A DNA stretch of 64,000 bases. It comes from Nannochloropsis salina CCMP1776. Its lineage: Eukaryota > Sar > Eustigmatophyceae > Eustigmatales > Monodopsidaceae. Of this stretch, positions 22,901 through 41,752 are shown in pieces. Position 1 is the first letter of the stretch, and the number at the start of each line of letters is the position of its first letter. Under the pieces are notes generated by a model. It ran no database searches and was not told the origin of the DNA. It saw nothing but the letters and a program-made list of their open reading frames with translations. The position numbers and the translations under genes are program-made. The stretch is from positions 969,352-1,033,351 of the forward strand of contig SDOX01000016.1 in the NCBI GenBank assembly GCA_004565275.1, given 5' to 3'.

Positions 22901-25900
22901 GCACCCATCGACGTCGTGCCCTCCCTGCCCCCTGCCTTGGCACCTCAATTCGTGTATCGGTATGTTTCCGCACCGCGGGAGCCCCCGATTACGCATTTGG
23001 TTTTGAATCATCTGAATGTCGTCGTCCTCGTCAGTCCTCTGCTCTACCTTGTTTCATTTTTTGGCTGCTTAGCGCCTGATCATTCTGAGGGCTTAGGAGA
23101 AAAAGACGAGGGCGTCGCCAAGGCATTAGCGGAACTGTCCTTTCCGTCGATGGAGAAAAAAGTGGGCAAGAGAGAGGGTGAATTACTTCAGGGGCCCACA
23201 CCGGACGAATCGCCACGCGAAGGACTGTCAGAGGAAGCGATAGTACAAGAAGTATCAACTAGCAATCGATTGCTGCCCTCTCCCGCGAGTGAAAATGCCC
23301 CAACGGACGAAGCCGAGGAGGTTCTTCAGGAAGTGATAAGGCGGGTGAAAATCATGGTACATCATCCTCGTATCATTTTTCCTGAGCGGAAGCCGGCAGA
23401 TGGAGGACGAGAAGACAGGCAGAGTGGAGGGACCAAAGCAGTGGTTATGAGGGGACTTGGGGTCGGGTCGTACGTGCAAGAGTTGGAAAGACGGCTGGAC
23501 GGCGCGGTTCTCCCCCGCAGTAAATGGAATGCCCATCTCGACGGCTTGGAATGCTTCATTACCTCCTTCACGATTCCATCTGCTTCAATTTCAGCTCCCT
23601 CTCCAGAATTTAGATCCTCTCAGCCTCCCCTTCCAGTCGAAGAGAACGTTTCCCTCTTAAATCCCACCAGCGTTTCCTTGGAATATACGCGCGCCTATTC
23701 CCTCTTACGGTCCCCTCTTCGCCATCTCCATCTTTCTCTCGACAGCATCACAACTTACATTTCTTATCAAGATTTGTATATACTTGGACGTGTCGTGGAA
23801 AGCTGGTACCACGGCAACCTTGCCCATGGGCGCCAGGTCCTCCCTCTCGACAATCCTACGGAAGAACAAGGGGAAGAATCAGCGCCAGATGCAGCTAACA
23901 CTCGAGCGACGGCGCCAGTGACAGCTGTGGGAGGATACTACGAGCTTACATTCGCACAGCAAAAGCTGGGCTTGATGCTGAGAAAGGTGGATGGGATGGC
24001 TGTCGTCGAGGGTCTCTCGATAGACGATGAAAACGAGATGAAAGGGGAGAGGGCGCGCAGGGCATCAGTTGTTTATCTCCCCAGAAAAGGAGACGTTATT
24101 TGGAGTATCAATGGAAAGCCAAGCGGAGACCACAGTGAGGTATTGCGATCAGTGCGCACTTTACCCCGACCCATCATTCTGGGGTTCTGCCCACGAGGGG
24201 AGCCTTTCACATTAAATGTCCCTTTAAGCAGCGTTTTTCTGCATCGCTCAACTCTACCGGATTGCCTCCTTCTTTCTGAGAAAGCTGTGGGGGAAAAGGG
24301 AGGCGACAAGGAGGGTAGGAAAGCAACAGCCATGCTTGTAAGTGTCGAAGGAAAGTCGATTGAAGGATTAGGGTACCAAACAGCGTTGGCTACGTTGAAA
24401 GAGGTAGCGGCCCAAGCAGAACACGCCAGGACGAGGGGGGGGAATTGTAGAACTGCGCTGATTGGTGTCCGACACCTAGGTCAACCAGTGCGTTTGCAAG
24501 ATTTAGAGGTCGAAATCGGGTCAATTTCACTGGTGGCAATCGATGACTTGGATGGGAAGGACCTGCCTCTCTTGAAATCGCGCGCCCGGAATCTCAAAGC
24601 CCGTGTTCGGGAATGGTCGTACGCAAGTGGGGGGCGAGAAGAAACAAGAGCAGGCATGAGAATTGTATTGGCTGGGATGATGGTCAATACGCAGGTGGAC
24701 TACTACAATGGACGGTTTGGAGCATGGGAGCCCCTGCTCGAACCGGTGGGTGTATCGGGAAGCGTGCGCAGGGTGACTGCGAGCGACTGTCCAGCCAGCT
24801 TGCACGGCCTTGCGTCGGACAGGACGATTACCACGACCTTGAATTTAAGCACGACGGACGCCTTGTGCTTGAACATCACAGACGCCCTCCTGGAGCTCGC
24901 ACAGCGGATTTGTCGGGGTCCAAAAAACTCTCCGTCTCCAAGTGTTTCCCTCGCACCACCTCTTCCATCAATGGACGCCTCATTTCCTCATCAGGCCCAT
25001 GTCAGTGGTGGGACAAATGCCGCGATCTTTGTGCCCTCCCAAGCGCCAAATTGCCGGGGGGCTACCTACGTGTTTCGGAATGACACCGGTCTGCCTACCA
25101 AGTTTTGGACGGTGCGGCAAGCGACAGGGAGGGATGAAAACTACCATTCCCGGCACGGAAGTGCTCAGAACCCTGTTCTAGAAGCTCCGCCAGGCGCTAC
25201 CGTGCCATTTTCAGTCGATCAACATCGACACGTTACCCATGAGACAGAGGGAAATGATGCCCAGCGTGATGAGATCCGACGACGGGAGTATGATGCAGTT
25301 CACACTCTCTTCGTGCGCCTAGGCGGCTCCTTGGACTGGTTGGAGTTGTCTTCCCTACCTTTGTCCCGAGTTGGCATCTATACCTATCCTTTCTTCCCAC
25401 CCACTCTCCCTTCGTACGTAGCAAGCAGCAGCTGCGCGAGTAAGATTGTGTGGGAAGTGGCATCCGAGGAAGGCCGACGCGTCTTGACTCTCCGCTCTGC
25501 CGTCCGCCTTCAAAACAGCACTGGGCTACCTCTTCAGTTGCGCTGTGTTGGGGTTAAGGAGATCGATTATTTATATGTGGGGCCATGGGCAGTCGTCAGC
25601 TTGCCTTTATCGTGGGCAGGCAGACAAGGCAGTATCACCCTTCGACCTACGGACAAGCAGAACTCCGGCACGTCCTCTTCCTCACAGTCCTCGAATGCGT
25701 CGTACTGTTCAGAGGATACCATAGAAGTGGATGTGCCCTCGGAAGAGGATCAATTTTCCTGGAGCGGAGCCTTGTGGGACGAGCCGGAGGTGGCATTCGG
25801 CAGCGCAACTACGTTGCGCAGCCTCTTAGTATGTCCCCTCCTTTTCCCTAAGTCCTCGACGTGTGTCGCCGATTCTGATCAGGAGCATCCCCTTATGCTC

Positions 25901-28900
25901 CATCTGGCTGCCGCGGAGCACGCAGGACAAGAAGGGGATTATGTTGTTCATATCTATGCGGGTGCAACACTAGTGAACCTTCTTCCTGTTCCAGTACGAT
26001 ACGCTTGGAGAGAGCGCTTCAATAGGAGAGAGAAGGAAGCTGGGAAGGCGAGAAACCTCGCAGGAGAGATAAAAACAGGTATGCTGGCTAGCGGAGAAGA
26101 GAAAGGATTGCACTTTGCGGATATTGTGGGGCTTGGGGCAGAAGTTTCTTTCAAATTGCACGGAGGGCCAGCGTATGAAGCTCTCGGCCGAACAAGATGG
26201 GTGAGCCTGGGGACCGAGGAACAGGGAAAAGAAGGAGACAGGGAAAAAAATGCGCACGAATTGGAAATGAGGGACGAGGCGGGGAATATCTTCGTGATCT
26301 TGGCGGAGCTGGAAAGGCGAGGCCCCAACGGGCTGCGTGTGACGCTGTACGTGGACGTATGGGTCAGGAATAAGTCGGGCTTGAATTTGGTTTACGGAGA
26401 GCCACGGAGAGGGAGGGCGGTCGAAACCCTCGGAGGCCCAGTGACAACGGACGTGGTGATGTCCGCCGTGCAAGAAGGAGAGGTGGTGGAGGAGGTGTTC
26501 GAGGTTCGGGTGCAGGGCAGGAGGCAGGCGGGCAGGCAAGAGGTGGAGACTCGGTGGGGCACCGAGCTGGGCCGTCCCTTGCTCCCGAAGGAGGAATGGC
26601 GCCTGCCGTCTTCGAGGACCTGGGCCTGGAGGGACCCGGCCTGGAAAGTTGACGGGTCAGGGCAGGTCTCGGAAGAGGAAGGGTGGGAGAGCAGCCGTTT
26701 GGACTTCCCTGATGCCTTCAAACCTGCTCGATGCTTTAACGCCAAAGATCGGATTTGGCGTCGACGCTGGCTGCGTCGACGGTCGTTGGTAGCATCTAAG
26801 GCCAGCGACGTGGAGGTGCCTCCAGCTGAGGAGGGAGGAAATGTGGTGCGGCAAGGTCTTTTTCTGCCGGGTGTGCTGCCTTTCCAGCCGCGCGCTCGAT
26901 CGGTAACCTCCACATTGTCATCTTCCGCAACTTCTTGTACCTCTTCTTTATCTACTCCTCCTTCCCACCACGGACAACGTCGGTCTCCTCACACTCAAGT
27001 GTCCCCGCTTACCTCTCGTCAACAGCAGGGAAATGATCCAATTATTCAACAACTCGTCCTGAAAATCGGAGACTCCCATTGGTCCCCTCCCCTGGACGTG
27101 AGTCTGGAGGGCGCAGGAGGGGCCTTCCAGGTGATTGGGAATCGATGGGGCGCCGTCCTGGAAGACAACCGCCTCTGCCACACGCTCTACGAGCTCGCTT
27201 ACCGGGTGACGACCTTGCCTCCTCCCTGGGATCGGACAAGACTGGTAACTATACAAGCCAGATACGTTCTTCGAAACGAGGGAGCACGGCCGGTCTTAGT
27301 GGGGCAATTAGGGGCCCGGGTCCCACCCATCGCTCCCGCGGCAGGGAAAGGGGAGGCCGGAGAACAGAAGTTCATGATGGAATTGGTCCCTGGGGAAAGT
27401 CGTCCTCTCCATTGGCCAAATTTTCGCTTGCAGTCCTTCTTGGTCCTCTCTTTTCCGCCCTCCCACTTTCCCGCCATTTCTGACACCCTGGCCACCGAAG
27501 GTACGGCAAGGAATGTGCGCTACTCGTGTTCCGGGGGGATCGATATCGCTGCTTTGTCGGATACCCCGGTGATTGTTCGCCCCTCTGTCCCCTCTCCGTC
27601 ATTTTCGGCCCCGGCTCCCCTTCCTCGCCTGGTACGCGTGCAAGTGGCGTTGGGAGAAGAGGACGAGGAGGAAGAAGACGTGGAGGCTGCTTTGTCCATC
27701 TCCTTGCGGGAGATACGTCGCCCTCGATATGCGCTGATCGAGGGAACTCACGGAAATATGGAGGAGGGGGAAGAATCAGGACGAAGGCGTGGGGAGGAGG
27801 AGGAGAAGGAGGAGGATGGAGAAGGGGCACCCTTGTTGTGGCTGGAGAATCGGTCGAGCGTGACTGTCTGGTACGGGCAAGCTGGGAGCGAGGTCGAAGA
27901 CGCCCTTCCTCCCGCCCACGCGCAAATCGTAGGGTGGGATCACCCATTACCATCATCCTGGGAAGGCCATGGAGCAGACGGGGGCGAGGGAGGGGCTTTG
28001 GCCGATGGAGAAGGAGATAGGATGTGCCACGTGCGTCTATCCTTAGCTCCTCCCACTTCGTCATTGCGGCGCACGACGGCGTCCACAGTCATCGTCTCTC
28101 CAGGTGCCGTGGGATCATCGCGTACGCTGGAAATCCCTGCTTCGGGGGGGGCAAGTGCGACGAGGGGGAGAGAGGGGGCACACAGCGTCACGGTGCAAGT
28201 TGTGATGAATGGGCCTGCCAAGATCCTGCGTGTCTTGGACCTTGTGCCGTCTTCATCACCGCCGTCTTCTTCGGCCAAAGCGTCTTCCCTGAGTTTTCTT
28301 CGGCATCGCGGCCATGACAAGACTCGACGGTCTGTAGGAAGAGACCTGCAACTTAGCCCTTCGGGCAGAAAGGAGAAAAGGAGGGATGTGTTGCGGATGC
28401 GTCTGGCTCTCCCTGCTGTCATCCTTTCCCTGGTGGATGACACGCCCGAGGAGGTGCTTGTGCTGGGATTGGGGGACGTGGTGGCGCAGGCCGTGAAAGG
28501 GGGAGGGGAGGAGGGAAGAGGAGGCCTCCGGTCCCGGCTGACTATAGACTCCTTCCAGGTGGATAATCATATGGCCCGGGCACATTTCGCTGTCGTCTTG
28601 CGGCCAGCAGATGATGAGCATGCGCTCTTAGCCCCTAACCCGTCTTCTTCTCCCTCTTCCCTTTCCTCCCGCCCTCCAAGCGTCCGTTTCGACATGGATG
28701 TTGGCCCTCCCCATCCCTCCCTCTTTGCGCACATCCGCATGCTTCGTGTGAGCACTCGCCGGGTCATTCTCAATCTGGATCAATCCACAGTCTTGGCTGT
28801 GCAGCGCATGGGGCACAGGATGAAAGGGGAGGGAGAAGCGGGCACAGAGGCGGTGGGGAAAATCATGTATCTCCCTTGTCAGGATGCATCTAGGGGTAGC

Positions 28901-30418
28901 CCCGCAGAGGTGGCCAAACTTCATTTCTCGCCCATCCAAGGAGAGGTCGTAAGACAAGGCTGCGGAGGAAGTCTGACTCCTGGTCGTAATCTGCATGAGG
29001 AGATCCAACGGAAAAAACAACGCAAGCCAAAGCAAGGGGTTAAAATTCTGGTGGAAGAATTGCGCATTGAGCCGCTGTCCGTCAATCTATCCTTGTCCCG
29101 GCCGCGCGAATCTCCGGAAGATGTGTATGTGGGCTTGAAACCCAACAAAATGCTTTCCGACATGCTCAACCGCCTGGACGAAGCGCGTTTGAATTTGCAA
29201 CCCTTCGAGGTTTCCTTCCTCCTGACCCCAGCCTCACATTTATTATGGTTGGCCCGGGTGCATTACGCCCGAGAGGTTAAGCGTCATGTATTCTCTATGC
29301 TGGGCTCCCTCCGAGCGTTGGGCAAACCCGTCACATTGATCCGAGGGATTGGGAAAGGCGCTAGTGACTTTGTGTCCCAGCCCATACAAAGTCTGGTCCG
29401 AAGCGTGGAGCTCTTGGATCCCGAGATTTTCTTCCAAGGCGTAGGACGAGGAACTGATTCACTTTTGAAGCACACAGTCGGGGGCGTGGCAAGCTCCGCG
29501 TCTTGCGTGATGGAAAATGTGGGAAAGCAATTGAGTTGCTTGGCATTTGACAAGGAGTACCGATTGGCCAGGGAGCGAGGGAGGGAGGGGGAGGCTGGAG
29601 GAGGAGGGGGCGGAGGAGAGGGGTCACGAGGAGGAGGCGGAGGAGGAAGACCTGCGGACGTCTTGGAGGGCCTGGGACTAGGAGGGAAGCGGTTGATGCG
29701 CGGGCTCGTGGACGGAGTGACGGGCGTGGTGGCCGCGCCGGTACGAGGGGCGGAGCGGGAAGGCTTTCGAGGAATGGTGAAAGGAATGGGGAAAGGGATG
29801 CTGGGCCTGGTGGTCAAACCGGTGGTCGGTCTCGCGGATGCAGCCAGCGACGTGTTGCAAGGCGTTCAGGGAACGGCCGGCGCGGCCTTGACGGCGGAAG
29901 CCCTGAGTCAATTGCGGCCGAAAAGGGCCGTGTATGGGGAAGAGAGGAGGTTAAAACCGTACGATATGGCGGATGCGCAGGCACAAATGCTGTTCGAGAG
30001 AGTGCGATGTAGGGAGGGAAGGAGGAAAGGAGGAAAGCGCTTGCTAGCAAGACAAGAGGAGTGGTATTGTGATTACGCAGAAATTGGAAGGAATCGGGGA
30101 GGAGTTGTTGTTTTGTCGACTGCCCGCGTATTATTTTTGAATGAGGAAGGAATTTTGCATTATTCTTTGTCGTGGAGAGAGGTGGTGCTCGCGGAGCTCC
30201 AGGTGCCAACACGAAGTGAGGAGCGACTTGGACTGGTGCTGCATGTACAGAGGGGAGTAGACGGAGGATTGCGGCGGTTTCTGGTCCCCTGCGAGACCGT
30301 TGGACATGCCAAAGCCTTAAAGGGTAAGGTGGATCAAGGATTTTTGAGCTTCCGATCTTCTGGGGGGGAGGGCGGGCTTGGCGGGTCGCTTGAGGAGGTT
30401 AAAAAGGAGGTGGAATGA
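16964..30418 (+). CDS. VPS13: Giant VPS13-type bridge lipid-transfer protein, intronless
   Basis: VPS13 proteins form a long hydrophobic groove that moves lipids between membranes at contact sites. One open frame of 13,455 nt encodes 4,484 residues, longer than yeast (about 3,100) or human VPS13 (about 3,100-4,000). Residues 1-110 are the chorein domain (MLEGLLARFLSSRVGHFVDG start, GEILLHDLRVK). A FYVE-like zinc finger with eight Cys at 1774/1777, 1791/1794, 1799/1802 and 1819/1822 is inserted near 1770-1825. PDZ-like segments lie near 2323-2405 (GDVIWSINGKPSGDHSEVL) and 2440-2515 (SVEGKSIEGLGYQTAL). Six VAB/SHR-BD-type repeats begin near 2701, 2847, 3003, 3132, 3432 and 3625 (for example VRLQNSTGLPLQL, WVRNKSGLNLVYG). 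The C-terminal ATG2-C-like region (from about 4029; DPEIFFQGVGRGTDSLLKHT) precedes a PH-like end (about 4365-4465). Acidic and Gly-rich linkers break the domains. The lack of introns is striking next to its neighbours. Confidence 0.96.
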   Translation: MLEGLLARFLSSRVGHFVDGVDQNNLNVGLWKGEILLHDLRVKGTAVDDLLGLIPLGLAWGRVGIFHLSVPWNAFGTKPLVITLKDVTLVFRVLTEEGSHGADGGDGGGGGASRTALRRRRAAKEREVQERLRYLQASKQRNGEGNGVSVQEEQERRGLAERLFASLLENVQVRLSNVHVRLEYREEECFVREQQDGEGPAAGGDAADLSPKTREREKIGDDCGHRIERNEVEEEEPTGPVRCHGHPPEGFLALGLEMEEFTIENHSAPGEEGIDDDEGEEEEEGEEGQVDASARGLSKGQSGGKAGMDVHTKATTVRKRALATNLALYCDPHSPPWVPSSLPPSRPSSTVAPGFHPFPVTTLAKHDYLLRPTSGALMLIARPVPLSPKRPKHDLSCHLTDVHVGTTLAQIRCLRALVHALASTRRVWEDLEGDRSGKDGWRGRRRPLGRVTDDPRGWWQYAAGRVLRGKEALAVDIAISTSASHSQTTPSTGPQDAGGPAPSLPSLPVPLAPPHRLGSGLPHPVHPPHLPTWPQLVSLVQTRHRYLRLHPRRALLLPDEAQSLQDLDDRLEVEEIVFLRLVANARPKDADASQIVGPAGPKAEQEVESTVVGWVKSWFEREGGRNGGDDGAIAPPGSGETTGGKPHDPELVSAADRRALEETALDYARTLAQVTIPPTYVITRLRLSLNQGSCTLYLSPTRPLARLVVDVASTFLLRPFSWSVSMALGALEVLDLDPLTKYRTVVTRKIRRRAAHIPATSLPPSLPPAMMVVGTYRVPKNADLQIHYNKGCEEGGRDLAVSCRVLPFEVFYSRRLLEALRHVCMPPLPSMAPDKGEEESEGVTEGMRHGMQEWQARQRARLLSRIADRGRIMLDIDIQAPLILIPETTRAEEGQLLVLDMGYVVLCNREHGQDEGKEDEADTAAWTLRMQHMAVEMCRLGALFLERKENDVDLHPIVEPFDLTLDIHTCLDNAARASTHASIQASLPRLAVNLRASTIQYFHRVFHRRRSQARAKILADTPENYRHGRRVRCRDEGRKLGIKKTGASAKDLRNNSTAALQAPREELSANVDSTPAIGKQDHTRVKDGISAEEEEKEAHIQAGRALNFTFTAPNIALHLVDDLVSPLPSGASSNFPCSPSSLFPLVDVAVQGIEGRILASDYQEAAKATTSINLEIAFVEIKDRHHFADASFSSLFGPLHDEVGKAMEDAGKGVSLLSVAIVHATRGESLLRSRNCGGQRKESTEVDIAVRPVQVQWNPETVAALQRFLAAQKQESVRNAREEEEESRQLRDRGNVVVELRGRARGDRYPPSDLHEEGRTFPTLGEDTTPSYTEGLGHLFSLYSSTSFSDQTQPSTSLSSFRLSTRLRTVSILLNKEKELRRLLRLQLRGLDLTLKGGGKAKALQGSIQGLTVDDLGNADTCFPRVLDGQKKGCLALSFSYSSLLPPLVSEASAGCDEAEDGRERGRDSAKGIVPDNHLDVVVGPLQVVYYNHLCLEVIDYVNEGVLGAIISSTLRSADALVRQRAMAKTGFTVSLAHPMAILPRYLTHLDHALAVMDDAVLKTVFENLHVPQVGEPVVDVHTAGNEDMGSTSASGGAKDGNAWSDTSQSPTVGQEYDSVYDDNDEEAREKAKKGEVIVLRRFDLAFSSVVISLESPALAGHPALLSTPFSFQVYVMRPLDVEYGNVLARRHREAGSTALDLPSIAVKAALPPLHLQASHESYSLLRRVVEDNLLTQEHHATNMLKALRALDLPPLATRSPYHRNAGAEEGKACLHCARAYHGVDDGAHSCPQCGDQICRRCLNVSVFDKSTGIVVRVCGACARASFPSLFHSGEDVRLSWHTRGQEHHAAHVAYSYGLIDGPLSDIKVDVHLSGLELNLLEPSPPSPSPSPSPANVVLDWRASAHFIIDETKILFRRPEDDRKILDVSLYRCLVDASSEVLRQVPREASILERILSPSMEALEKEPSGKTSGPSSSLPAPIDVVPSLPPALAPQFVYRYVSAPREPPITHLVLNHLNVVVLVSPLLYLVSFFGCLAPDHSEGLGEKDEGVAKALAELSFPSMEKKVGKREGELLQGPTPDESPREGLSEEAIVQEVSTSNRLLPSPASENAPTDEAEEVLQEVIRRVKIMVHHPRIIFPERKPADGGREDRQSGGTKAVVMRGLGVGSYVQELERRLDGAVLPRSKWNAHLDGLECFITSFTIPSASISAPSPEFRSSQPPLPVEENVSLLNPTSVSLEYTRAYSLLRSPLRHLHLSLDSITTYISYQDLYILGRVVESWYHGNLAHGRQVLPLDNPTEEQGEESAPDAANTRATAPVTAVGGYYELTFAQQKLGLMLRKVDGMAVVEGLSIDDENEMKGERARRASVVYLPRKGDVIWSINGKPSGDHSEVLRSVRTLPRPIILGFCPRGEPFTLNVPLSSVFLHRSTLPDCLLLSEKAVGEKGGDKEGRKATAMLVSVEGKSIEGLGYQTALATLKEVAAQAEHARTRGGNCRTALIGVRHLGQPVRLQDLEVEIGSISLVAIDDLDGKDLPLLKSRARNLKARVREWSYASGGREETRAGMRIVLAGMMVNTQVDYYNGRFGAWEPLLEPVGVSGSVRRVTASDCPASLHGLASDRTITTTLNLSTTDALCLNITDALLELAQRICRGPKNSPSPSVSLAPPLPSMDASFPHQAHVSGGTNAAIFVPSQAPNCRGATYVFRNDTGLPTKFWTVRQATGRDENYHSRHGSAQNPVLEAPPGATVPFSVDQHRHVTHETEGNDAQRDEIRRREYDAVHTLFVRLGGSLDWLELSSLPLSRVGIYTYPFFPPTLPSYVASSSCASKIVWEVASEEGRRVLTLRSAVRLQNSTGLPLQLRCVGVKEIDYLYVGPWAVVSLPLSWAGRQGSITLRPTDKQNSGTSSSSQSSNASYCSEDTIEVDVPSEEDQFSWSGALWDEPEVAFGSATTLRSLLVCPLLFPKSSTCVADSDQEHPLMLHLAAAEHAGQEGDYVVHIYAGATLVNLLPVPVRYAWRERFNRREKEAGKARNLAGEIKTGMLASGEEKGLHFADIVGLGAEVSFKLHGGPAYEALGRTRWVSLGTEEQGKEGDREKNAHELEMRDEAGNIFVILAELERRGPNGLRVTLYVDVWVRNKSGLNLVYGEPRRGRAVETLGGPVTTDVVMSAVQEGEVVEEVFEVRVQGRRQAGRQEVETRWGTELGRPLLPKEEWRLPSSRTWAWRDPAWKVDGSGQVSEEEGWESSRLDFPDAFKPARCFNAKDRIWRRRWLRRRSLVASKASDVEVPPAEEGGNVVRQGLFLPGVLPFQPRARSVTSTLSSSATSCTSSLSTPPSHHGQRRSPHTQVSPLTSRQQQGNDPIIQQLVLKIGDSHWSPPLDVSLEGAGGAFQVIGNRWGAVLEDNRLCHTLYELAYRVTTLPPPWDRTRLVTIQARYVLRNEGARPVLVGQLGARVPPIAPAAGKGEAGEQKFMMELVPGESRPLHWPNFRLQSFLVLSFPPSHFPAISDTLATEGTARNVRYSCSGGIDIAALSDTPVIVRPSVPSPSFSAPAPLPRLVRVQVALGEEDEEEEDVEAALSISLREIRRPRYALIEGTHGNMEEGEESGRRRGEEEEKEEDGEGAPLLWLENRSSVTVWYGQAGSEVEDALPPAHAQIVGWDHPLPSSWEGHGADGGEGGALADGEGDRMCHVRLSLAPPTSSLRRTTASTVIVSPGAVGSSRTLEIPASGGASATRGREGAHSVTVQVVMNGPAKILRVLDLVPSSSPPSSSAKASSLSFLRHRGHDKTRRSVGRDLQLSPSGRKEKRRDVLRMRLALPAVILSLVDDTPEEVLVLGLGDVVAQAVKGGGEEGRGGLRSRLTIDSFQVDNHMARAHFAVVLRPADDEHALLAPNPSSSPSSLSSRPPSVRFDMDVGPPHPSLFAHIRMLRVSTRRVILNLDQSTVLAVQRMGHRMKGEGEAGTEAVGKIMYLPCQDASRGSPAEVAKLHFSPIQGEVVRQGCGGSLTPGRNLHEEIQRKKQRKPKQGVKILVEELRIEPLSVNLSLSRPRESPEDVYVGLKPNKMLSDMLNRLDEARLNLQPFEVSFLLTPASHLLWLARVHYAREVKRHVFSMLGSLRALGKPVTLIRGIGKGASDFVSQPIQSLVRSVELLDPEIFFQGVGRGTDSLLKHTVGGVASSASCVMENVGKQLSCLAFDKEYRLARERGREGEAGGGGGGGEGSRGGGGGGRPADVLEGLGLGGKRLMRGLVDGVTGVVAAPVRGAEREGFRGMVKGMGKGMLGLVVKPVVGLADAASDVLQGVQGTAGAALTAEALSQLRPKRAVYGEERRLKPYDMADAQAQMLFERVRCREGRRKGGKRLLARQEEWYCDYAEIGRNRGGVVVLSTARVLFLNEEGILHYSLSWREVVLAELQVPTRSEERLGLVLHVQRGVDGGLRRFLVPCETVGHAKALKGKVDQGFLSFRSSGGEGGLGGSLEEVKKEVE
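22283..22429 (+). other. FYVE-like zinc finger within VPS13
   Basis: Eight cysteines spaced CX2C-X13-CX2C-X4-CX2C-X16-CX2C, which is FYVE spacing, ending RVCGACARA as FYVE domains do (RVCDxC). The basic R(R/K)HHCR patch that binds PI3P is replaced by GAHSCPQCG, so lipid binding may be lost or altered. Confidence 0.8.
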
Positions 30419-30704: not shown

Positions 30705-31535
30705 CTAGGGGCCCGTTTTTTTCTTCCCCACCCCAGGTTCGATGATATAAAATTTGCTTTTCCTTCTGGTCAACGGGGATGGCGCAGAGGGTATGTGCTC
30801 TTGTTGCTTTGTATGTGCCTCTGCAGGAGTCGAGTCCGCCGCCGCTTGTCTGTGGTTGTTATCCTCTCCTCCCTTTTCTCCCCAGCACCGCGGCTCCCCG
30901 GTCTTCCACCGTCGATCTAAACTCTTCAAGTCACAGGGAAAGACGGGTTTTCCCAGTTTCTCGTTCACGAGGTTGTGTTGCTTGCAAATCCAAACTGAGA
31001 AGGCTTCGCGGCTTTCCACACGGGGAGGGAGTGCTTGGATGCATTCCTGGAAATCTGTCCGGCAGTATGTGCACGGGTACAGACCTGCAATTCCATGGAC
31101 GAGGCCCGCAGCCAAAGACTGCTCCTGAGGTGTGGGAGACTCGGGATAATACGCTGCGGTAGAATGAAGCACACCCCATGTCATGTCGCCCAACGTGTCT
31201 TTGTCGAGTGGACAATGGTATTTCCGCCAAGCTGCCTCGTCAGAGGAGGAGGCAGCTGAAGGGGTGGACGAGGCCAGGGAGGGTGAAGACGAGGAAGTAG
31301 CACCAGATTTCGACATACCGGCGGCACTTTTCAGCATATCGAGCATGGATTTACAGGCAGCATGCTCACATTCCTCTTCCACGGCCGCTAAAGGGTTGTC
31401 AATTCGAGGTGGCGGAGTAGGGGGGGGCATGGCTGAGCTGGACGTTAGGGCCAGCAGCAATATTATTTTCACCTGTTTAGAACCTAGAGACTGGAGGAAA
31501 ACTGACAATTTTAAATTGGAGAGAGAATTCGCCAT
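30705..31535 (-). CDS. ERV1: Erv1/ALR-type FAD sulfhydryl oxidase
   Basis: Erv/ALR enzymes use FAD to make disulfides and pass electrons to oxygen or cytochrome c; Erv1 partners Mia40 in the mitochondrial intermembrane space. Single exon, 276 residues from ATG at 31535. The ERV core spans about 108-213: CPLDKDTLGDMTWGVLHSTA with FAD-binding Trp and His, AAYYPESPTPQEQ, the redox CxxC at Cys154/Cys157 (YPCTYC), and the structural CX16C pair Cys184/Cys201 around KQHNLVNEKLGKPVFPC, followed by LDRRWKTG. The motif order matches human GFER. An N-terminal CX4C pair (Cys56, Cys61) lies before a Ser/Ala-rich linker and may act as the shuttle disulfide. Residues 23-35 are hydrophobic (KIILLLALTSSSA), so targeting to the secretory route instead of mitochondria cannot be excluded. 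The frame is open upstream of this Met, but the longer start is not an ATG. Confidence 0.92.
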   Translation of the reverse strand: MANSLSNLKLSVFLQSLGSKQVKIILLLALTSSSAMPPPTPPPRIDNPLAAVEEECEHAACKSMLDMLKSAAGMSKSGATSSSSPSLASSTPSAASSSDEAAWRKYHCPLDKDTLGDMTWGVLHSTAAYYPESPTPQEQSLAAGLVHGIAGLYPCTYCRTDFQECIQALPPRVESREAFSVWICKQHNLVNEKLGKPVFPCDLKSLDRRWKTGEPRCWGEKGGEDNNHRQAAADSTPAEAHTKQQEHIPSAPSPLTRRKSKFYIIEPGVGKKKTGP

Positions 31536-32142
31536 GGTAGAACGCCTGCTTCCAAAGGAAAGTGGCACCCGAAGCGGAGGGCCAGAGGGGGCGAGTCTCC
31601 TTGCTCGCCCGTTCCCAGAGAGGAATGAGGCTTTGCCACTCCTTGTCTTTGACCACATACTTAAATAAAAACGCAACCCGACCCTATTTCAATGGAATGA
31701 CTGATTTGTTGAGAACCATACGGTTGCATTGTTATCGTGGCGTGGGATAGGCCTGCGAGTGGCTGTGAACGCAAGCAAACCCTTTTCCCCCTCCGAGTGG
31801 ACGGACGGCTGCAGCAACTTGCCTTCGGACTGCAACTTGCCTCCTTTTGTGCCCTTGGTTATTCCCGTCCACGTTCTATCATCGCGTACGAATTTATAGA
31901 AACGGTGCAAGGGCTTACTCAAAAGCTTTCATTTAACAGGGTACGCTTTGGAGTCGGTGGAAAGGATTTGGGCGCTGAAGTGCTCAAGATACACAGCGTG
32001 GAGAATGGTGGATGCAAACAACGCGCCCAGGCGCGGGTGCAACATAGCGCGCTGGGAGAGGACAAAAATGGATTGCCACGATCATGACAGGCCACGCGTA
32101 AGCAGTGGAAGGCTAACCGTTAATCGACATACTGGGAGGGTA
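31536..32142. promoter_or_regulatory. Divergent region between ERV1 and the NusG-like gene
   Basis: About 600 bp between outward-facing starts; must contain both promoters. No specific element identified. Short open frames on the plus strand upstream of 32143 lack motifs. Confidence 0.5.
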
Positions 32143-35100
32143 ATGTGGCTGATCATCGGTCTTGTCGTGGCAGGCAAGGTGTGCTGCAGCACGGCTTTCT
32201 CGACTGCTTTTCAACTCGTAAGTTTTGACGCTGCGATGCTTTAGGGAGCGTTCATTTTGGTTTTCAGCAGGTCGTAAGTAGTACATTGTGGTACATTGTC
32301 CTGTAGCGCTATGTGTGGTCTGGTTCACCCCTAATGTGCAGTTCGACATTCCTGCTCTATGAGAAATAACTCTTGTCGCAGAGCCGCTGCCCCTGCTTTC
32401 TTTATTGATCCACTCAGCTCTCTCGTGCCACATCCTCCTGCCTTCCTCAACCATAGCCTGGCGCCTCGGATCCGCGCAAGCGCGTCCTGCCAGCTGGATC
32501 ATGTCCGCGGCTAGTTTCCCTCCCCTCGCTCCACGCCTCCCCTTTAACCTCCACCTCCGGCAGCGATATTTTCGAACAAGACGGCTCCATACCATCTTTT
32601 CCTCCCTCCCGTGCCGCCACCTCTGCCGTGGACAGATACAATGTGGGACCGGTTGACCCTGGCGACGATCGCGAGACTCGTCCCCACGCGGACAGCATAT
32701 CGGAGGCGGAGATCGAGGAAGTTGCGCGAAAATGGGAGCGTCGGAAGCAAAGCCGGCGGGAGCGGATCACCAAGAAGAAAGGGGCCCGGGAGGCGATGTT
32801 GGACGAGGCGGAGGACGTGATTCCCGACCGGGAGGTGCCTTTGTGGTATGCGTTGAAAGTGAAGACGGGCATGGAAATCCAGATCCGCGACACCCTGGGT
32901 CAGCTGGCCACCCTCCCTCGGTACCGGGGCCAGATTTTGGAGACTTTGGTGCCCATGGCGAAGTCGGTCAAGTCCTTGGGGAAGTCTCTCCGCCTGGTTG
33001 AACAGCCCTTGCACCGCGGCTACGTCTTCATCCACATGGCGATGTCGCGCGACCTCCACGACGCGGTGCTGGCTCCCAATGGAGTGGGCTGCTTCATCGG
33101 TCGGCGCGTGGCGGGGAAAGGGATCATCCCCAACCCGCTCCGGGCCAAGGAAGCAGATCGGTTGAAAGAGCGGGCCCTGTACGAAGCCGGTCGCACCATC
33201 GACCTGGAGGCGATCCCCTTCCGGCCCAAGGATCGGGTGGACATCCTGGTGGGAGAGTTTGCCTATGCCCGTGGACGGGTCACGTCCGTGAAGGAAACCG
33301 AGGTGAATGTAGCTGTGAAGCGGAACAAGGTGGAAGTGCGGGTGACGCTGCCTCAGTCAGGGGTTCGGAAGCTCACTCAGGAGGAGTTGGATCAGGAAGC
33401 GAGGGAGGCCGGGGAGGAGGGACGCCGGGCGTTTGACCGGGCCCGCGGGGGGGGGGTGGACGGGTGGGAAGCGATCGCACGGAGCAATAGCGACGCAGTG
33501 GCCTTCTCAGGAGAAAGGAAGGGAGGGGAGGTGGTGCGCGAGAAGAAGAAGAAGGCGCCGGACCGAAAAGGACCGAGCTTGTACCGTGTTTTGAGCGACT
33601 ACGTGAATTTGGAAAATTTCGACCCGAACAAGCCACCCCAGGTGGAGGAGATGGTGAATGGGATGCTGGAGTTGACGGGGCAAAAGGAAGATGTGGATGG
33701 GTACTACCGGGAAAAGTTTGAGAATGCGAAGAAGGCGTGGGAGGCTTGGAAGAATTATTTGGAGGAAAAAGATGCCCGGAGGAAAGCGGGGCGTGAACGG
33801 GCGTTGCGTCGGAAGGCGATGGGCTACGATGAGCACAACGACAATTGGAAAGGACCAAGCTGGGTAGAAGGAAGGGAGGGGGGGAGGGAGGGAGGAGGGA
33901 AAGGGTGGGACCGTCAGGGCACCGGGGTGGAGGAAAAGTGGGTGCCGCGGGCAGAAAGGGGTGGAAGGGGGGATGAGGAGGAGATGGAGGGCGAGGATAA
34001 GGAACTAGAAAATCAGTTTTTAGACCGGCTGATGTTCGACTTGGATAAGACGCCGGGCGCGGGGAGGAGGGGAGGGAGGGAGGGAGGAAGGGAGGGAGGG
34101 AAAGAGAGGGGTAGGGGGGTAGGGAGGGAGAGCACGCTGGGGGATGATGAATTGGATGCCTTGATCCAATCATCTCCCGTCAGCACCCCGCCGGAAGTGG
34201 CTCAGCGTCGAGGTGGAGTAGAGCGGGAAGTTCGAGGTAATGGAAGAGGACGCGGGGGAGGGGCCGGGGGAGGGGCTGGGGGAGGAACTTTGAGCGAGGA
34301 GGAGCAGAAGGAATTGGACGTGTGGCTGGGAATGATTTCGAGTGGGAGAGGGACTTCCGCCTCCTCCACTCCTTCCACATTGTCTCTCTCCAATGGCCCT
34401 GCCTCGCTCCCCTCCTCCTCGTTCACTCCCTCGCCGGGAATGGGAGGGCAGCCACGCGCAAACCCCCCCTCAGGGGCGAAGGGAAAAGACTTTTCATTGG
34501 ATCCGGAGGAAGAAAAAGAGTTGAACGAATGGTTGAGTCGCTTCGACGCTGACTACAAGGAGGGTGCAGATGGCTTGCGGGTAGAGAAAACGAAGACCGG
34601 AAGGGAGGAGGGTACTGAGGGAGGAAGGGAGGGAGGAAGGGGAAAGGCAGAGGGGGAAGACGCAGTAGATCGAGAATTAGCTGAGTTGTTGACGAAATTG
34701 GAGGCGGCAGAAATCAGTGCCTCTGCAGGGGGAGGAGAGAGGGAGGGGAAGATAAAGGGGGGCAGCGGAACAGCACCCCGAGTCCCTTCCTTGGGAGTAG
34801 AGGGGGTGGAAGCAGCGGTAGAAGTCGACAGTTTCCTCTCGGAGCTTTACCAGCCTTTAAAGGGAGGAAAAAGTGGAAAGGAGGGGTCTCAGATTGAAGC
34901 GTCTTCGGGGTTGGACAGTGTGTCTCTGTTGAAGATGGCTCTGGAGGACGTTGGGGGCCGGGGGGGGGAGGCGGCGATACCCCCCATCTCATCGAGGACT
35001 CAAAATGCCAGAATGAATGCAGGACGCAGGGGAGGGGGAGAGGAAGAGGAGGACGAGCGAGAGAATGACGAGACGCTGCCGGCCTCAGTAAAGAGGCGTC

Positions 35101-35957
35101 TATTCGTGAGCCGGACTGTTGAGGGAGAGGATGAAAGAGAAAACGAAGACGAGGACGAGGGCGGGGACGACGAAGAGGAATGGGGAGTAGGGAGAAGGAG
35201 CAGCGATCGAGGGCAGACGAGGGAGAACGATTTACTTCTGGGCGCTTACAGTGAAGACCCCGAAGAAGCTCCGGGTCAGTTTTTGGAGGAGGGGCTGGAG
35301 GAATCTGTCCACTTGGGCCGCCCTAGAGGGGGCGGAATGGGTGGGATGAGGCAAGGCTACATGTACGATGACCCCTTGGATGGAGGGGGGGAGTCGATGT
35401 CCCTTGATGCCAGGCAAGGAGGTAAAGTGGGAAACAGGGATGGAAGGAAAGGAGATAAAGGAGATTGGATGCGGGCTCTAGCGGAAGAGGACGTGAATGG
35501 CGGGAATGAGGATATATTTGATAGTTTTGAGGACGTAGGTGGTTTGGAGGGACTAGGAAAACTTGATACATTGTTTGCAGGCGAAGCTAGTAAAAAAGGT
35601 GAAATGGAAGGAAAGATAAGAAAGAGTCAGGTCAAGAGGAACGAGGATGAATGGGGGTCATTGTTAGATGAAGTGGATTTGGGAGAGCTGGATGAATTTG
35701 AAGAAATCGAAAAGCTTGTAAATACGGGTAGAAAAGGACAGGAAGACATTTTCGCGGAGGGGAAGTTGGAAAAGAGGAATACGAAAATCGTAGCACCAAC
35801 GGTCGATAGGCGCAGGAGGGAAAGTATGAGATTGTCACCCTCGATTATTGAAGGAATGAAGGTAGTAGATCTGCGGGCGGAATTGAAGGCTATGGGCCTA
35901 ACAGTGAGCGGTTCTAAGGCAGACCTTCAGGCGCGTCTCGTACGAGCCACACAGTAA
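32143..35957 (+). CDS. NusG-like (NGN-KOW) protein with C-terminal SAP motif, predicted plastid-targeted
   Basis: NusG/Spt5-type proteins bind RNA polymerase and regulate elongation; plants have a plastid version (pTAC13). Two exons, 32143-32217 and 32457-35957, join in phase 0 across a 239 bp GT-AG intron, giving 1,191 residues. Exon 1 encodes exactly a signal peptide, MWLIIGLVVAGKVCCSTAFS, with an A-F cleavage motif like the ASAFAP site of stramenopile plastid preproteins. It is followed by a Ser/Pro/Arg-rich transit-like stretch. The NGN domain spans about 153-275 (PLWYALKVKTGMEIQIRD, PLHRGYVFIHM, GVGCFIGRR) and the KOW about 281-312 (FRPKDRVDILVGEFA). A helical basic region (to about 480) leads into a long acidic, Gly/Arg/Glu-rich low-complexity part encoded by GGGA tracts. 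The last 40 residues form a SAP DNA-binding motif (VDLRAELKAMGL, GSKADLQARLV). Predicted role: plastid transcription or nucleoid protein. The large exon alone has no suitable ATG before the NGN region except Met near residue 140, which supports the upstream exon. Confidence 0.82.
34058..34112 (+). repeat. GGGA simple repeat inside the NusG-like coding exon
   Basis: GGGAGGGAGGAAG repeats translated as Gly/Arg/Glu-rich sequence. Similar shorter tracts occur at 33866-33902 and 34612-34650 of the same exon. They show the genome-wide simple repeat invading a coding region in frame. Confidence 0.8.
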
Positions 35958-37000
35958 TATATCTGGAAAATTATGGGGGGGGAAAGTAACACAGGGTTCC
36001 CAAAAGAAGGGAGTTGTGAGGCAGACTTGAAGCATCGAATTCTTTGACTTGTTACTCGGTTAATTTCTACGGGACAACATATGTTGTAGCGTGGAGAATC
36101 CCTGTATTTCTATCGACTCGATGAATGTTGGGACTTGTAAACGTGACGGTATTGACTGAGAGTGTTGCCTCCTAAGTTTCTCTTCAAATGGTTATGAGAA
36201 GGGAAACCACGATTGAAGAAGGAGGATGAAAACAGATGAAGGTCAGCATGGAAAAGATCAATCGTACCTTGCATTGGTATATCTTTCACTGTGTTTTCTT
36301 GGATTACTACAACACTACTGTTTGGATTACTACAACGTCCTTTGAGCCTGACGTCATGTTCACCTTCTTTAATCGGCATTGGAATGCCGAGCATCCGACC
36401 TCCAAAGTGCACCGCATCGGTCTTGACGCATGAAGTGTGGATGTATCACTACAATCTGTGTGACATTTTTTTCTGCAACATGCAATGCTTGTCTTTCATG
36501 CATTGATCAATCCAAGAAGAGAATCGATCACATGCATCGCTGTCTGCAGTAGGGCTTGGCATTTTGCCAAAACTCGCATCGTTACTTCCTCTCTATGCTC
36601 GGCTCCTCGGTATTTTCGAAATCGGAGTTTCCATAGCCGGTCTTTTTCCCTCAGACCAAGAGAAGTGTACTTCTGCAATGTGAAAGCGTTTGCGTGCATG
36701 GCGTGTTGAAATTCTCGACACATTTTTTGTCAAACGTCGAATGTGGCTGGCCTTTTTCATCATTAACGTAGAAAGCCGCGACCAAGCACCCATTTAAACA
36801 AGACCTATCGATGTTACCACTCAAACTCGCACACGTCTCTGTGTCTTGCACACGTGATTGCGCTGTACTCGTGCTCTGGCCCATTATGTATTCAAAAGGC
36901 CTGTACTACAATAATCAAATACGCGCCACGAAGGCGACCTTCATCCGCTGACACATCACGACCTATCTCACTGTAAGCTTTTAGGCACACTTCAAGGACA
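35958..37000. other. Upstream part of duplication unit 1; no gene called
   Basis: Contains the NusG-like 3' UTR and, from about 36110, sequence related by eye to 39475-40336 upstream of the second Thr/Pro-repeat gene. Conserved blocks include the stretch near 36200 with CACGATTGA and GGAGGATGAA, and the 36790-36960 stretch shortly before the start codon. Small open frames in both copies show some shared residues but with frame-breaking differences, so none is called. Confidence 0.5.
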
Positions 37001-38389
37001 ATGAACTCCATTCTTTGCCTGCTCATCTGTAGCAGTCTATTCACTGGTGCTCAAGGTGTAACCAATACACAATCAAGCGTCCTCACTAGACGTCTGGTCG
37101 AGGGTGTAGCCCCTACGCCTGCCCCTCCCATCGACCCCACGCCTGCCCCCCCTATCCATCCTACGCCTGCCCCGTCCATCGACCCCACGCCTGCTCCTAC
37201 CATCGACCCCACGCCTGCCCCCCCTATCCATCCTACGCCTGCCCCGTCCATCACTCCTACGCCTGCTCCTACCAGTATCTCAACTCCAGCTCCTACGCAG
37301 GCTCCCACTCCCTCCCCTACTAACGCCCCCACCAAGATCCCTACGTCAGCTCCTACAATGGCCCCCACTCCCTCCCCTACTGAAGCCCCCACCAAGATCC
37401 CTACGTCAGCTCCTACAATGGCTCCCACTCCCTCCCCTACCGACGCCCCCACCAAGATCCCTACGCCAGCTCCTACAATGGCTCCCACTCTATCCCCTAC
37501 TGACGCCCCCACCAAGATCCCTACGCCAGCTCCTACGCCGGCTCCCACTCCATCCCCTACTAACGCCCCCACCAAGATCCCTACGCCAGCTCCTACGCTG
37601 GCTCCCACTCTATCCCCTACTGACGCCCCCACCAAGATCCCTACGCCAGCTCCTACGCCGGCTCCCACTCTATCCCCTACTGACGCCCCCACCAAGATCC
37701 CTACGCCAGCTCCTACGCCGGCCTCCACTCCCTCCCCTACTAACGCCCCCACCCAGATCCCTACCAAGATCCCCACGGCTGCTCCTACTGAGCGGCCTTC
37801 CCCGGCGCCCACTACGCCCGCTCCGGTCACTCCAATCGACCCCTTCAATACCCCGGTCCTGGTTGAAAACTCCACATGCATTCGCGTTGTTGATTTCCAT
37901 ACCGATCCTTCTGCCAAGCCCTTCAAAGCGAAAAGGGATCGATGGACCATTACGGGCTTCTTCAACGACCCCGCAGAAACTGCGGTCGTGAACATTGGCC
38001 AGTACGGCATCATTGCAGTGCTCCAGGATGCAGCGAAGAAGGCTCTGAGCTCCACTTTCTTCACACCCCCGCAATGCAAAGCGTTGAACAATATACGAGG
38101 CGTGACTTGCAAGACCACTGGTGCTCGCTTACGGCTTAAGAAGACGAAGGATCCGAGCGTACGCAACAAATCAAGCGAAGGCGCTTTCTACAAGGTGAAA
38201 GGTGTCTTTCGCCGGCTGACCTTCCTGCAACAGCCTGTCCAGACCCCTCTTACCACGATATTTGCAGTTCAGTTTCCGAATACGACTACTGTCTTTACCA
38301 CCTCAGCCACCGAGCAATGCACGGAAAAGGGCAAGACAGGAGGCAAGAAGACCAAGATCGACTGCTGCAGGCCGTCTAAAAAGAAGTAG
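37001..38389 (+). CDS. Secreted Thr/Pro-repeat protein, copy 1
   Basis: Family not recognised; probably a cell-wall or extracellular matrix protein. 462 residues, single exon. Signal peptide MNSILCLLICSSLFTGAQG, then a Pro/Thr-rich stalk: six 8-residue units of the TPAPPIDP kind, then seven 20-residue units ([14 protein letters not shown] plus TPSPTD), each encoded by a 60 bp repeat at 37321-37740. Stalks like this are usually O-glycosylated and extended. The C-terminal domain (about residues 280-462) is non-repetitive with six Cys, a core reading [40 protein letters not shown] and [12 protein letters not shown], and a basic tail ending CCRPSKKK. It is nearly identical to copy 2 from the end of the repeats onward. 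A 372-codon open frame lies antisense over the stalk and is a by-product of the repeat. Confidence 0.85.
   Translation: MNSILCLLICSSLFTGAQGVTNTQSSVLTRRLVEGVAPTPAPPIDPTPAPPIHPTPAPSIDPTPAPTIDPTPAPPIHPTPAPSITPTPAPTSISTPAPTQAPTPSPTNAPTKIPTSAPTMAPTPSPTEAPTKIPTSAPTMAPTPSPTDAPTKIPTPAPTMAPTLSPTDAPTKIPTPAPTPAPTPSPTNAPTKIPTPAPTLAPTLSPTDAPTKIPTPAPTPAPTLSPTDAPTKIPTPAPTPASTPSPTNAPTQIPTKIPTAAPTERPSPAPTTPAPVTPIDPFNTPVLVENSTCIRVVDFHTDPSAKPFKAKRDRWTITGFFNDPAETAVVNIGQYGIIAVLQDAAKKALSSTFFTPPQCKALNNIRGVTCKTTGARLRLKKTKDPSVRNKSSEGAFYKVKGVFRRLTFLQQPVQTPLTTIFAVQFPNTTTVFTTSATEQCTEKGKTGGKKTKIDCCRPSKKK
37321..37740 (+). repeat. 60 bp coding minisatellite, seven units
   Basis: Seven tandem 60 bp units, each encoding a 20-residue Thr/Pro-rich unit and differing mainly by substitutions that swap TPA/TSA, TMA/TPA and TPS/TLS. 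An incomplete unit follows at 37741. Confidence 0.95.
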
Positions 38390-40336
38390 GCCATCCGCGT
38401 TGCAGCTTGCTGTCCTTACCATTTGTGTCCATCGCACTAGTTGTGAGTTGGAAGTATATGTGCGACGTTCAAAGAGGGGCGGCTTGTCTGCCTTGCGAAC
38501 TAGCATTGTGAAGCAATTTGATTGTGTGTGACTACTTGTGCCCTGAATTGTATGCACCACAGCGTAATTTTCTTCCCCCCCGCAGGCAGCATTGCAAGTA
38601 TGTCTGCCTGCCACTCTGAAAAGGAATCCCATATTCTTTCGTTCTCCCCCCTAGTTAGTAGCAAAGAATTTGATGAAGCGCGCAGGAAGAAAAGAATGGC
38701 AGCTTTGAGAGATGCGCGATGGTTCCCACAATATCAGTAAAGATTCGTTTACTTCTTTGTCATTCTATGACTCGTTGCAAATCATTTGCTTGATGTCTGT
38801 TCGATTGTAATTGGCTCCGTGATGTTTGGGCCTGATGATGCACAGAGCTTTATTTTAATCTTCATAGCGCAGGGTGCAGCACGCGCGAGAGATCAACGGC
38901 ATCGACAGGCAAAAACTTCCAATGTTGTGTCCTAATAGGACAAAAATTTTCTGCGATACAGAAGAGGACATTTCGTCTTTCCGAAATAATATTTATTTTT
39001 TATGACTGGTACTTTGCTCCAAATCCGCTGTCAAGAATGCAACAAAGGAGGTTTAAGATGGAAGCCAGACTCAAAATTCTCTGCAAGAGCGCAACTTGCC
39101 CTCAAATCATCGTCAAGATTTACGCCAAGAGCTAGAAGCACAAAAAGAACGACGGTTATCGATTACTCCACCTTGTGCCGAACGTTTTAATACACTGGAT
39201 GATCTGTTTAGAAGATTTTCTAGTCAGGTACCCCCATTTTTCATGGACGTAAGCTCGGATGTTGTACTGTGCGTAGTTGTGGTTGACCTTCACAGCCCTT
39301 TCAAGGGTGATGATCAACAAGCAATGAACATGGCTTCCTCTTCTGGATTCCTTCAATTGAATAAATGTGTAACACAACACTACTAACTCTATCAAAATAT
39401 TTGAATTGCCTAAGAAATGAGATGCATGAACTTCATGCCACATCAAATTGGTTTGCGGAGAACCTCGTTGTTTTCTCGACTCGACAAATGTCGCGGGCTT
39501 TTCAGCGTAACGGTTTTGACTGTCGCCATATAAGTTTCCACAGAGAAGGGTAAACACCACGATTGATGAAGGAGGATGAACGCAGATGGAGGTCAACATG
39601 GAGAGAATTGCCCATGCCCTACATTTATGCATCCCTCCATATTACTCATCTCCTTTTGAATTCCTACAACACACTTTGAGCCTGACATCATGTTCACATC
39701 CTTTTATCTGCACTGAGATGCCGAGCATCCGAACTCGAGGTGCATCGCATCGGCCTTTACTCGTGAAGTGTGGGGTGTATCACACTGCAATGCGTGTAAC
39801 ATTATTTTTGCGCCATGCAATGATGTTCCTCCATTCATTCATCAATCCAACGATAGAATTGATCACATGCGTTGCCATCTGCGTCAGGGCTTGGCATTTT
39901 GGCCAAAATTCGCATCGTTTCTTCTCCTCTCTGTTCGGCTCCTTGGTAGCGCCGAAATGCGTTTCAAAATTGCGAGGTGATTTGTTCTCACACCAAGCGA
40001 AGTGTATTTCTGCAATGTGGGAAGCGTTTACGTGCATGGCATGTTGAAATTCTCGATACTTCTTTTGTTAAATGTCGAATGAGGTACGCCTTTTCAATAT
40101 ATACGTGAAAAGCCGCGACCAAGCACCATTTTAACAAGACCTATCGATGTTACCACTCAAACTCGCACACGTCTCTGTGTCTTGCATACCTGATTGCGAG
40201 GTACTCGTGCACTGGCCCATTATATATTCAAAGCATCTGTACTACAATAATCAGATACGCGCCACGAATGCGACCTCCATCCGCTTATAAATCACGGCCT
40301 ATCTCACTGTACGCTTTTAGGCGCACTTCAAGGACT
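38390..40336. other. Region between the two Thr/Pro-repeat genes
   Basis: Holds the 3' UTR of copy 1 (nearly identical to that of copy 2 up to about 38753), the diverged downstream flank of unit 1 and the upstream flank of unit 2 (from about 39475). A 46-codon open frame at 38600-38740 recurs at 41963-42103, but the DNA around it is equally conserved, so this does not show coding function. A TATA-like TATAAATC lies near 40287, about 50 bases before the copy 2 start codon. Confidence 0.5.
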
Positions 40337-41752
40337 ATGAACTCCATTCTTCGACTATTTATTTGTAGCAGCATTACTATCGTTGCTAAAGGATCAAGCA
40401 ACCCACAATCCAGCGTACTCGTCAGAGGCCTGCAAGACAATGAATCTACTACGTCTGACCCTACCATCGAGGTTACATCGAGCCCTACTATCGACCCCAC
40501 GTCTGACCCTACCATCGAGGTGGTTACATCCAGCCCTACTATCGATCCCACGTCTGACCCATCCATCGAGCCTACACCGACCCCTACTATCGACCCCACG
40601 TCTGACCCTACCATCGAGCCTACTGACGCCCCCACCAAGAACCCTACGCCAGCTCCTACAATGGCCCCCACTCCCTCCCCTACTGACGCCCCCACCAAGA
40701 TCCCTACGCCAGCTCCTACAATGGCCCCCACTCCCTCCCCTACTGACGCCCCCACCAAGATCCCTACGCCAGCTCCTACAATGGCCCCCACTCCCTCCCC
40801 TACTGAAGCCCCCACCAAGATTCCTACGTCAGCTCCTACAATGGCTCCCACTCCCTCCCCTACTAACGCCCCCACCAAGATTCCTACGCCAGCTCCTACA
40901 ATGGCTCCCACTCCCTCCCCTACTGACGCCCCCACCAAGATCCCTACGCCAGCTCCTACGCCGGCCCCCACTCCATCCCCTACTGACGCCCCCACCAAGA
41001 TCCCTACGCCAGCTCCTACGCCGGCCTCCACTCCCTCCCCTACTGACGCCCCCACCAAGATCCCTACGCCAGCTCCTACAATGGCTCCCACTCCCTCCCC
41101 TACTAACGCCCCCACCCAGATCCCTACCAAGATCCCCACGGCTGCTCCTACTGAGCGGCCTTCCCCGGCGCCCACTACGCCCGCTCCGGTCACTCCAATC
41201 GACCCCTTCAATACCCCGGTCCTGGTTGAAAACTCCACATGCATTCGCGTTGTTGATTTCCATACCGATCCTTCTGCCAAGCCCTTCAAAGCGAAAAGGG
41301 ATCGATGGACCATTACGGGCTTCTTCAACGACTCCGCAGAAACTGCGGTCGTGAACATTGGCCAGTACGGCATCATTGCAGTGCTCCAGGATGCAGCGAA
41401 GAAGGCTCTGAGCTCCACTTTCTTCACACCCCCGCAATGCAAAGCGTTGAACAATATACGAGGCGTGACTTGCAAGACCACTGGTGCTCGCTTACGGCTC
41501 AAGAAGACGAAGGATCCGAGCGTACGCAACAAATCAAGCGAAGGCGCTTTCTACAAGGTGAAAGGTGTCTTTCGCTGGCTGACCTTCCTGCAACAGCCTG
41601 TCCAGACCCCTCTTACCACGATATTTGCAGTTCAGTTTCCGAATACGACTACTGTCTTTACCACCTCAGCCACCGAGCAATGCACGGAAAAGGGCAAGAC
41701 AGGAGGCAAGAAGACCAAGATCGACTGCTGCAGGCCGTCTAAAAAGAAGTAG
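40337..41752 (+). CDS. Secreted Thr/Pro-repeat protein, copy 2
   Basis: Paralogue of the 37001-38389 gene; 471 residues from the ATG at 40337, the position matching the copy 1 start (an earlier in-frame ATG at 40268 would spoil the signal peptide). Signal peptide [19 protein letters not shown]. The first stalk differs from copy 1: it has acidic units of the kind SDPTIEV and SSPTIDPT. It then carries eight 20-residue units (60 bp each, 40621-41100), one more than copy 1. The C-terminal six-Cys domain differs from copy 1 at only two residues seen by eye (Pro to Ser near nt 41335, Arg to Trp near nt 41576). Function is unknown; a cell-surface role is inferred from the signal peptide and stalk. 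Confidence 0.85.
40621..41100 (+). repeat. 60 bp coding minisatellite, eight units
   Basis: Eight tandem 60 bp units, the same unit type as in copy 1 but one unit longer, with an incomplete unit after 41100. Confidence 0.95.

Follow-up and report, generated by a model that had tools for sequence, protein, structure and literature searches.

NusG homologs are known from the nuclear genomes of plants and chromists, as reported in PMC7593976, and a plastid NusG is already known in AtNusG (pTAC13), which PMC9262611 places in nucleoids and describes as binding PAP9, uS5c and uS10c. The SAP domain is known from the plant protein PAP1/pTAC3, and PMC4080259 lists this protein and pTAC13, with its KOW and NusG domains, as separate proteins. 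Here, we analyzed a stretch of 64,000 nucleotides (the window) from contig SDOX01000016.1 of Nannochloropsis salina CCMP1776 (positions 969,352 to 1,033,351, forward strand), in which one gene, NusG-SAP (window positions 32143–35957, plus strand), encodes a NusG-like protein ending in a SAP domain. An earlier reading of the same DNA (the original prediction) had proposed such a fusion against a background of SAP motifs in plant plastid proteins, with which PAP1/pTAC3 agrees. The domains follow one another in a single open frame, NGN and SAP folds are predicted, and the Nannochloropsis oceanica ortholog VYU27_007062 (P0003; 1246 residues, 69% identity overall, recorded as "hypothetical protein") keeps the full domain order. 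In the assembly searched (26.5 Mb, 103 contigs), which seems to lack the plastid genome, this gene was the sole match to the NGN family PF02357 at E ≤ 1. The product of this one nuclear gene seems to unite a bacterial-style elongation factor with an import signal for the chloroplast and a small motif of the DNA- or RNA-binding kind.

Architecture and gene model of the NusG-SAP protein

A Pfam scan of the protein, with families listed at E ≤ 1, placed an NGN domain (PF02357) at residues 155–261 (32844–33164), above the Pfam cut-off, and the predicted fold had strong support. A KOW-like domain (KOW2_Spt5) followed at residues 282–330 (33225–33371) with 19.2 bits, below the cut-off of 28.9; it was aligned to the cyanobacterial KOW, and its strands sit in a low-confidence part of the structure model. 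The NGN half of the NGN-KOW pair originally proposed was thus firmly upheld; the KOW half is tentative. Because the score with the NusG equivalog model TIGR00922 (45.3 bits) was under the curated cut-off of 135.7, the protein was filed as NusG-like and not as an equivalog; its NusG-like nature, likewise proposed earlier, agreed with the family models, the predicted fold and the full-length ortholog. By analogy, the NGN domain may bind the RNA polymerase clamp.

Beyond the KOW-like domain, residues 395–485 (33564–33836) were 91% identical to N. oceanica (83/91), a conservation on par with that of NGN-KOW (167/183). No Pfam family was found in this post-KOW segment at E ≤ 1, and a long helix was predicted with modest confidence. 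An acidic linker of 665 residues follows (residues 486–1150; 33837–35831; net charge −51), in which N. oceanica shares 375 of 643 aligned residues and eight islands are conserved; the protein models of N. oceanica (720 residues here) and N. gaditana both cross this stretch. The linker had been described as an acidic Gly/Arg region; it is indeed acidic, with a composition that is Gly/Glu-rich rather than mainly Gly/Arg (G 18%, E 15%, R 9%).

The SAP domain (PF02037; residues 1156–1189; 35847–35948) scored 41.3 bits (E 1.1e-10; cut-off 23.9), and 29 of 41 residues in the region were identical to N. oceanica. The structure model contained the SAP fold (helix, extended loop, helix) with modest support, the predicted local distance difference test (pLDDT) values being about 89–92 over most of the domain. 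Foldseek matched this model with probabilities of 0.94–0.99 to five SAP-titled chains and lower to four others. The top matches were chains of the 3'-exonuclease 3'hExo, several of them in RNA complexes; Rho chains aligned too, and further matches included 1h1j, titled as a SAP domain that binds scaffold/matrix attachment region (S/MAR) DNA, and Ku70 on a nucleosome. A C-terminal SAP domain, for which the original prediction had named structure prediction as a check, was accordingly sustained by the Pfam score, the predicted fold and the full-length ortholog. A Rho_N domain in its place was rejected: SAP is the family match, and a genome-wide search for PF07498 at E ≤ 0.01 found nothing. DNA binding by the SAP domain is putative.

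Re-reading of the sequence bore out the coordinates, frame, phase-0 splice sites and stop given originally. Exon 1 (32143–32217) comprises 25 codons (MWLIIGLVVAGKVCCSTAFSTAFQL); its hydrophobic core is LIIGLVVAG, and A↓F occurs twice (F19 and F23). The predicted phase-0 intron (32218–32456; 239 bases, GTAAGT...CCATAG) runs from a CTC↓GTAAGT donor to a CCATAG↓ acceptor, and exon 2 (32457–35957) continues as a single open frame of 1166 codons, with the stop at 35955–35957. When the 112 combinations of upstream ATG, GT and AG that keep the frame open were scored against the N terminus of P0003, this model, with its start at 32143, ranked top with 94, and the next acceptor, 32481, reached 87. The start codon at 32143 is favoured through the N. 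oceanica ortholog. Without splicing, the first in-frame Met would be that at 32796 (residue 139). Residues 61–152, mostly before M139, are identical to P0003 at 72 of 91 positions, and the part upstream of M139 is therefore taken to be translated.

Exon 1 had been thought to encode a signal peptide only. The signal peptide held, and since STAF occurs twice (F19, F23), the exon codes beyond it, for the predicted signal peptide plus the first three or seven transit-peptide residues. Residues 26–60 (32457–32561) form a transit-peptide-like stretch, with 5 basic and 1 acidic residues within residues 1–60. The N terminus of P0003, MKTRWLVGMLVACTASCGATVAAFHMPP, is a similar signal; the likeness over residues 1–60 is loose (21/54 aligned residues identical, 14 gap columns), and presequences commonly diverge in sequence. 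In red-lineage secondary plastids, a Phe at position +1 after signal-peptide cleavage is a known mark (PMC4329603). The hydrophobic core and the two A↓F sites, judged by inspection, together with the similar ortholog start, point to a putative ochrophyte-type plastid presequence, with which the protein would be imported into the plastid. Exon shuffling as a route to transit peptides is an existing idea (PMC3017844), and the exon layout is only compatible with the acquisition of a targeting exon.

Orthologs, genome context and other SAP genes

Protein database searches, which scored 7991, 7998 and 1091 candidates (the first two sets being those that shared the most words), yielded three distinct relatives, P0003 and P0004, both from Nannochloropsis, and the EukProt protein P0005. 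N. gaditana P0004 (768 residues, 90% identity, recorded as "DNA-binding SAP") was identical to the window protein at 61 of 62 positions over residues 424–485, and the linkers of the two agree at 593 of 665 residues, which suggests that the window comes from a close sister of N. gaditana and not from that strain itself. P0004 shows SAP only, because its model begins inside the gene. P0005 was 87% identical, in a model with the NusG part only. Read alone, these two partial public models would lead to the fusion being overlooked. No NusG-SAP fusion was found elsewhere at E ≤ 0.01 among 5.8 billion sequences, although reported plant and chromist NusG proteins (PMC7593976) were also missed, so that the absence of other fusions is not established by this search. 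Neither a profile search of genome contigs with the alignment of the window and N. oceanica proteins nor a scan of viral contigs revealed a relative.

The PF02357 search, run as a control on 14 other genomes, gave matches in 10. The assembly contains three RPB2-type genes; they lie on contigs of 0.6–1.6 Mb and are read as nuclear. The Spt5-NGN family PF03439 had a single match in the genome, in a separate gene on contig C86, and none in the window protein at E ≤ 1; a reading of the latter as Spt5 was therefore rejected. Rho was also rejected as a partner of the KOW-like domain, the assembly containing three weak matches only (the best with E 8.5e-5 and 24.9 bits, the cut-off being 509), which are too weak to convince and are probably other RecA-type ATPases. 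No NusA was detected in the assembly at E ≤ 0.01, and two sigma-70 region-3 matches were above the cut-off.

PF02037 had 26 matches in the genome, 23 of them above the cut-off; 20 other loci were examined, and the remaining matches comprised four outside this set, one second match in an examined locus and the window's own. The Pfam scan, which read stop-to-stop frames, took in 19 of the 20 loci (L021 was left out). In several loci the domains are those of nuclear proteins (Ku, MIZ/PINIT, Tho1/MOS11, RSB motif, INCENP), and two of the 20, both known from stop-to-stop frames only, start like plastid precursors by eye. P0006 (L023:4647–6632, plus strand), a single frame with a SASAF-type presequence (...LPSASAFLAARF...), combines SAP, S1, CvfB_WH and RRM with a Gly/Arg-rich tail and is a lead toward a second candidate plastid SAP protein. 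In P0007 (L019:4511–6187, minus strand), SAP comes after an Fpg/Nei-type DNA glycosylase, and a signal-like hydrophobic N-terminal stretch ends in SAYSF. Val directly follows its likely ancestral start, where Pro is usual.

In the window, an Erv1/Alr-family frame (30705–31658, minus strand) lies head-to-head with the NusG-SAP gene, with about 485 bases between them, and a VPS13-like frame of 4489 stop-free codons occupies 16949–30418 (plus strand); a match to a FYVE zinc finger within it is below the cut-off. Downstream, the adjoining paralogous frames at 36977–38389 and 40109–41752 (plus strand) contain long PTPAPTxAPTPSPT repeats and are nearly identical to each other in their C-terminal part; they look like a recent tandem duplication, and their products are perhaps secreted.

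Putative function and alternative explanations

The best reading, to which we give a probability of about 55%, is that of an imported plastid NusG by which the plastid RNA polymerase, during elongation, stays attached to DNA of the nucleoid. The N-terminal bipartite signal would bring the protein into the complex plastid, where the NGN domain would hold the plastid polymerase, and the KOW-like domain, as in AtNusG, may contact uS10c of the plastid ribosome or some other partner, Rho being improbable in this role given that the assembly contains no convincing Rho gene. The SAP domain, at the end of an acidic and flexible linker some 665 residues long, would bind DNA of the plastid close to the transcription complex, a tether that would keep polymerase, template and nucleoid together. 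A link between elongation by the polymerase and DNA of the nucleoid, as originally proposed, may fairly be inferred. More tentatively, and well short of an even chance, SAP may serve in Nannochloropsis-type algae as a plastid-nucleoid address on imported bacterial-type nucleic-acid proteins (NusG, the S1/CvfB/RRM protein and the Fpg/Nei glycosylase), with NusG-SAP using its acidic linker, in a multivalent manner, to tie the polymerase to DNA of the nucleoid during elongation, and with a single polypeptide taking on the tasks that are divided in plant plastids between pTAC13 and PAP1/pTAC3.

Several observations weigh against the nucleoid tether. In the yeast two-hybrid experiments described in PMC9262611, AtNusG did not interact with the four core polymerase subunits. 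SAP-type folds also bind RNA, and the SAP domain here could do so, so that the protein may instead be a plastid NusG with a SAP that binds to RNA, either nascent or structured, and may link elongation with the processing of RNA or with translation, not with the nucleoid. We regard this as possible but rather doubtful: the 3'hExo and Rho alignments and the contact of AtNusG with the plastid ribosome (PMC9262611) would suit it, whereas the sequence matches SAP, with Rho_N not among the matches at E ≤ 1, and the fold matches extend to 1h1j and to Ku70. A role of SAP as a passive tag for nucleoid retention or stability, shared by several imported proteins and leaving NusG to work as in plants with no added coupling, is unlikely; P0006 and P0007 would be its further bearers, but both are stop-to-stop frames, and the linker islands kept in N. 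oceanica suggest more than a tag.

The gene start bears on a further alternative, in which the protein belongs to another compartment (periplastid space, mitochondrion or nucleus) or truly starts upstream or at M139. In-frame ATGs at 32005 and 32068 were near-tied with the start at 32143 (93 against 94), also a point against plastid import, and would bury the signal peptide; the Met at 32796 is available with no splicing. The conservation of residues 61–152, the similar signal start of the ortholog model and the presence of Spt5 as a separate gene make this alternative improbable. An artefact, by which neighbouring NusG-like and SAP genes were read as one across purine-rich low-complexity DNA, would account for P0004 having SAP only and P0005 NusG only. 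We rejected it as highly improbable, in that the frame of exon 2 is stop-free through the purine-rich region 33837–35840 (0/1000 mononucleotide shuffles were open), P0003 is full-length and the linker islands are conserved.

Comparison with known systems

The NGN domain of NusG-SAP was 27–32% identical to those of 13 cyanobacterial sequences, the bacterial NusG compared including that of 8syi_G; these 13 end with KOW. The NusG of Thermotoga maritima, too, has acquired an additional domain, which according to PMC7819879 aids its recruitment into transcription complexes; there, the addition is DII, whereas the post-KOW segment, linker and SAP of the alga come after KOW. Eukaryotic Spt5 also has an NGN-KOW core plus acidic and unstructured regions, according to PMC7819879, but at E ≤ 1 the match of the window protein is to PF02357, with none to PF03439.

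Closest are the plant plastid proteins. Like AtNusG/pTAC13, the algal protein is nuclear-encoded, with NGN and a tentative KOW, predicted plastid targeting and a bacterial-type plastid polymerase as expected partner. AtNusG, as described in PMC9262611 and numbered to 333 in a construct, has NGN and KOW only, whereas the alga adds the post-KOW segment, the 665-residue acidic linker and the C-terminal SAP, and its presequence is of the secondary-plastid type. With PAP1/pTAC3, which belongs to the plastid polymerase complex of plants, it shares a SAP domain, in what would likewise be a plastid transcription factor (PMC4080259, PMC9456514); in the plant protein SAP accompanies pentatricopeptide repeats (PMC9456514), whereas in the alga it is on NusG itself, and the Pfam scan listed no pentatricopeptide repeat family at E ≤ 1. 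No description of a NusG with a C-terminal SAP was found in the open-licence literature, among the matches listed, and the fusion with its 665-residue acidic linker and 91%-conserved post-KOW segment is apparently new, not being described in the literature searched. If the nucleoid tether is correct, the fusion would offer a single deletable handle on the link between transcription and nucleoid in secondary plastids, and the joining of parts that are separate in plant plastids would be evolutionary evidence that both functions belong together.
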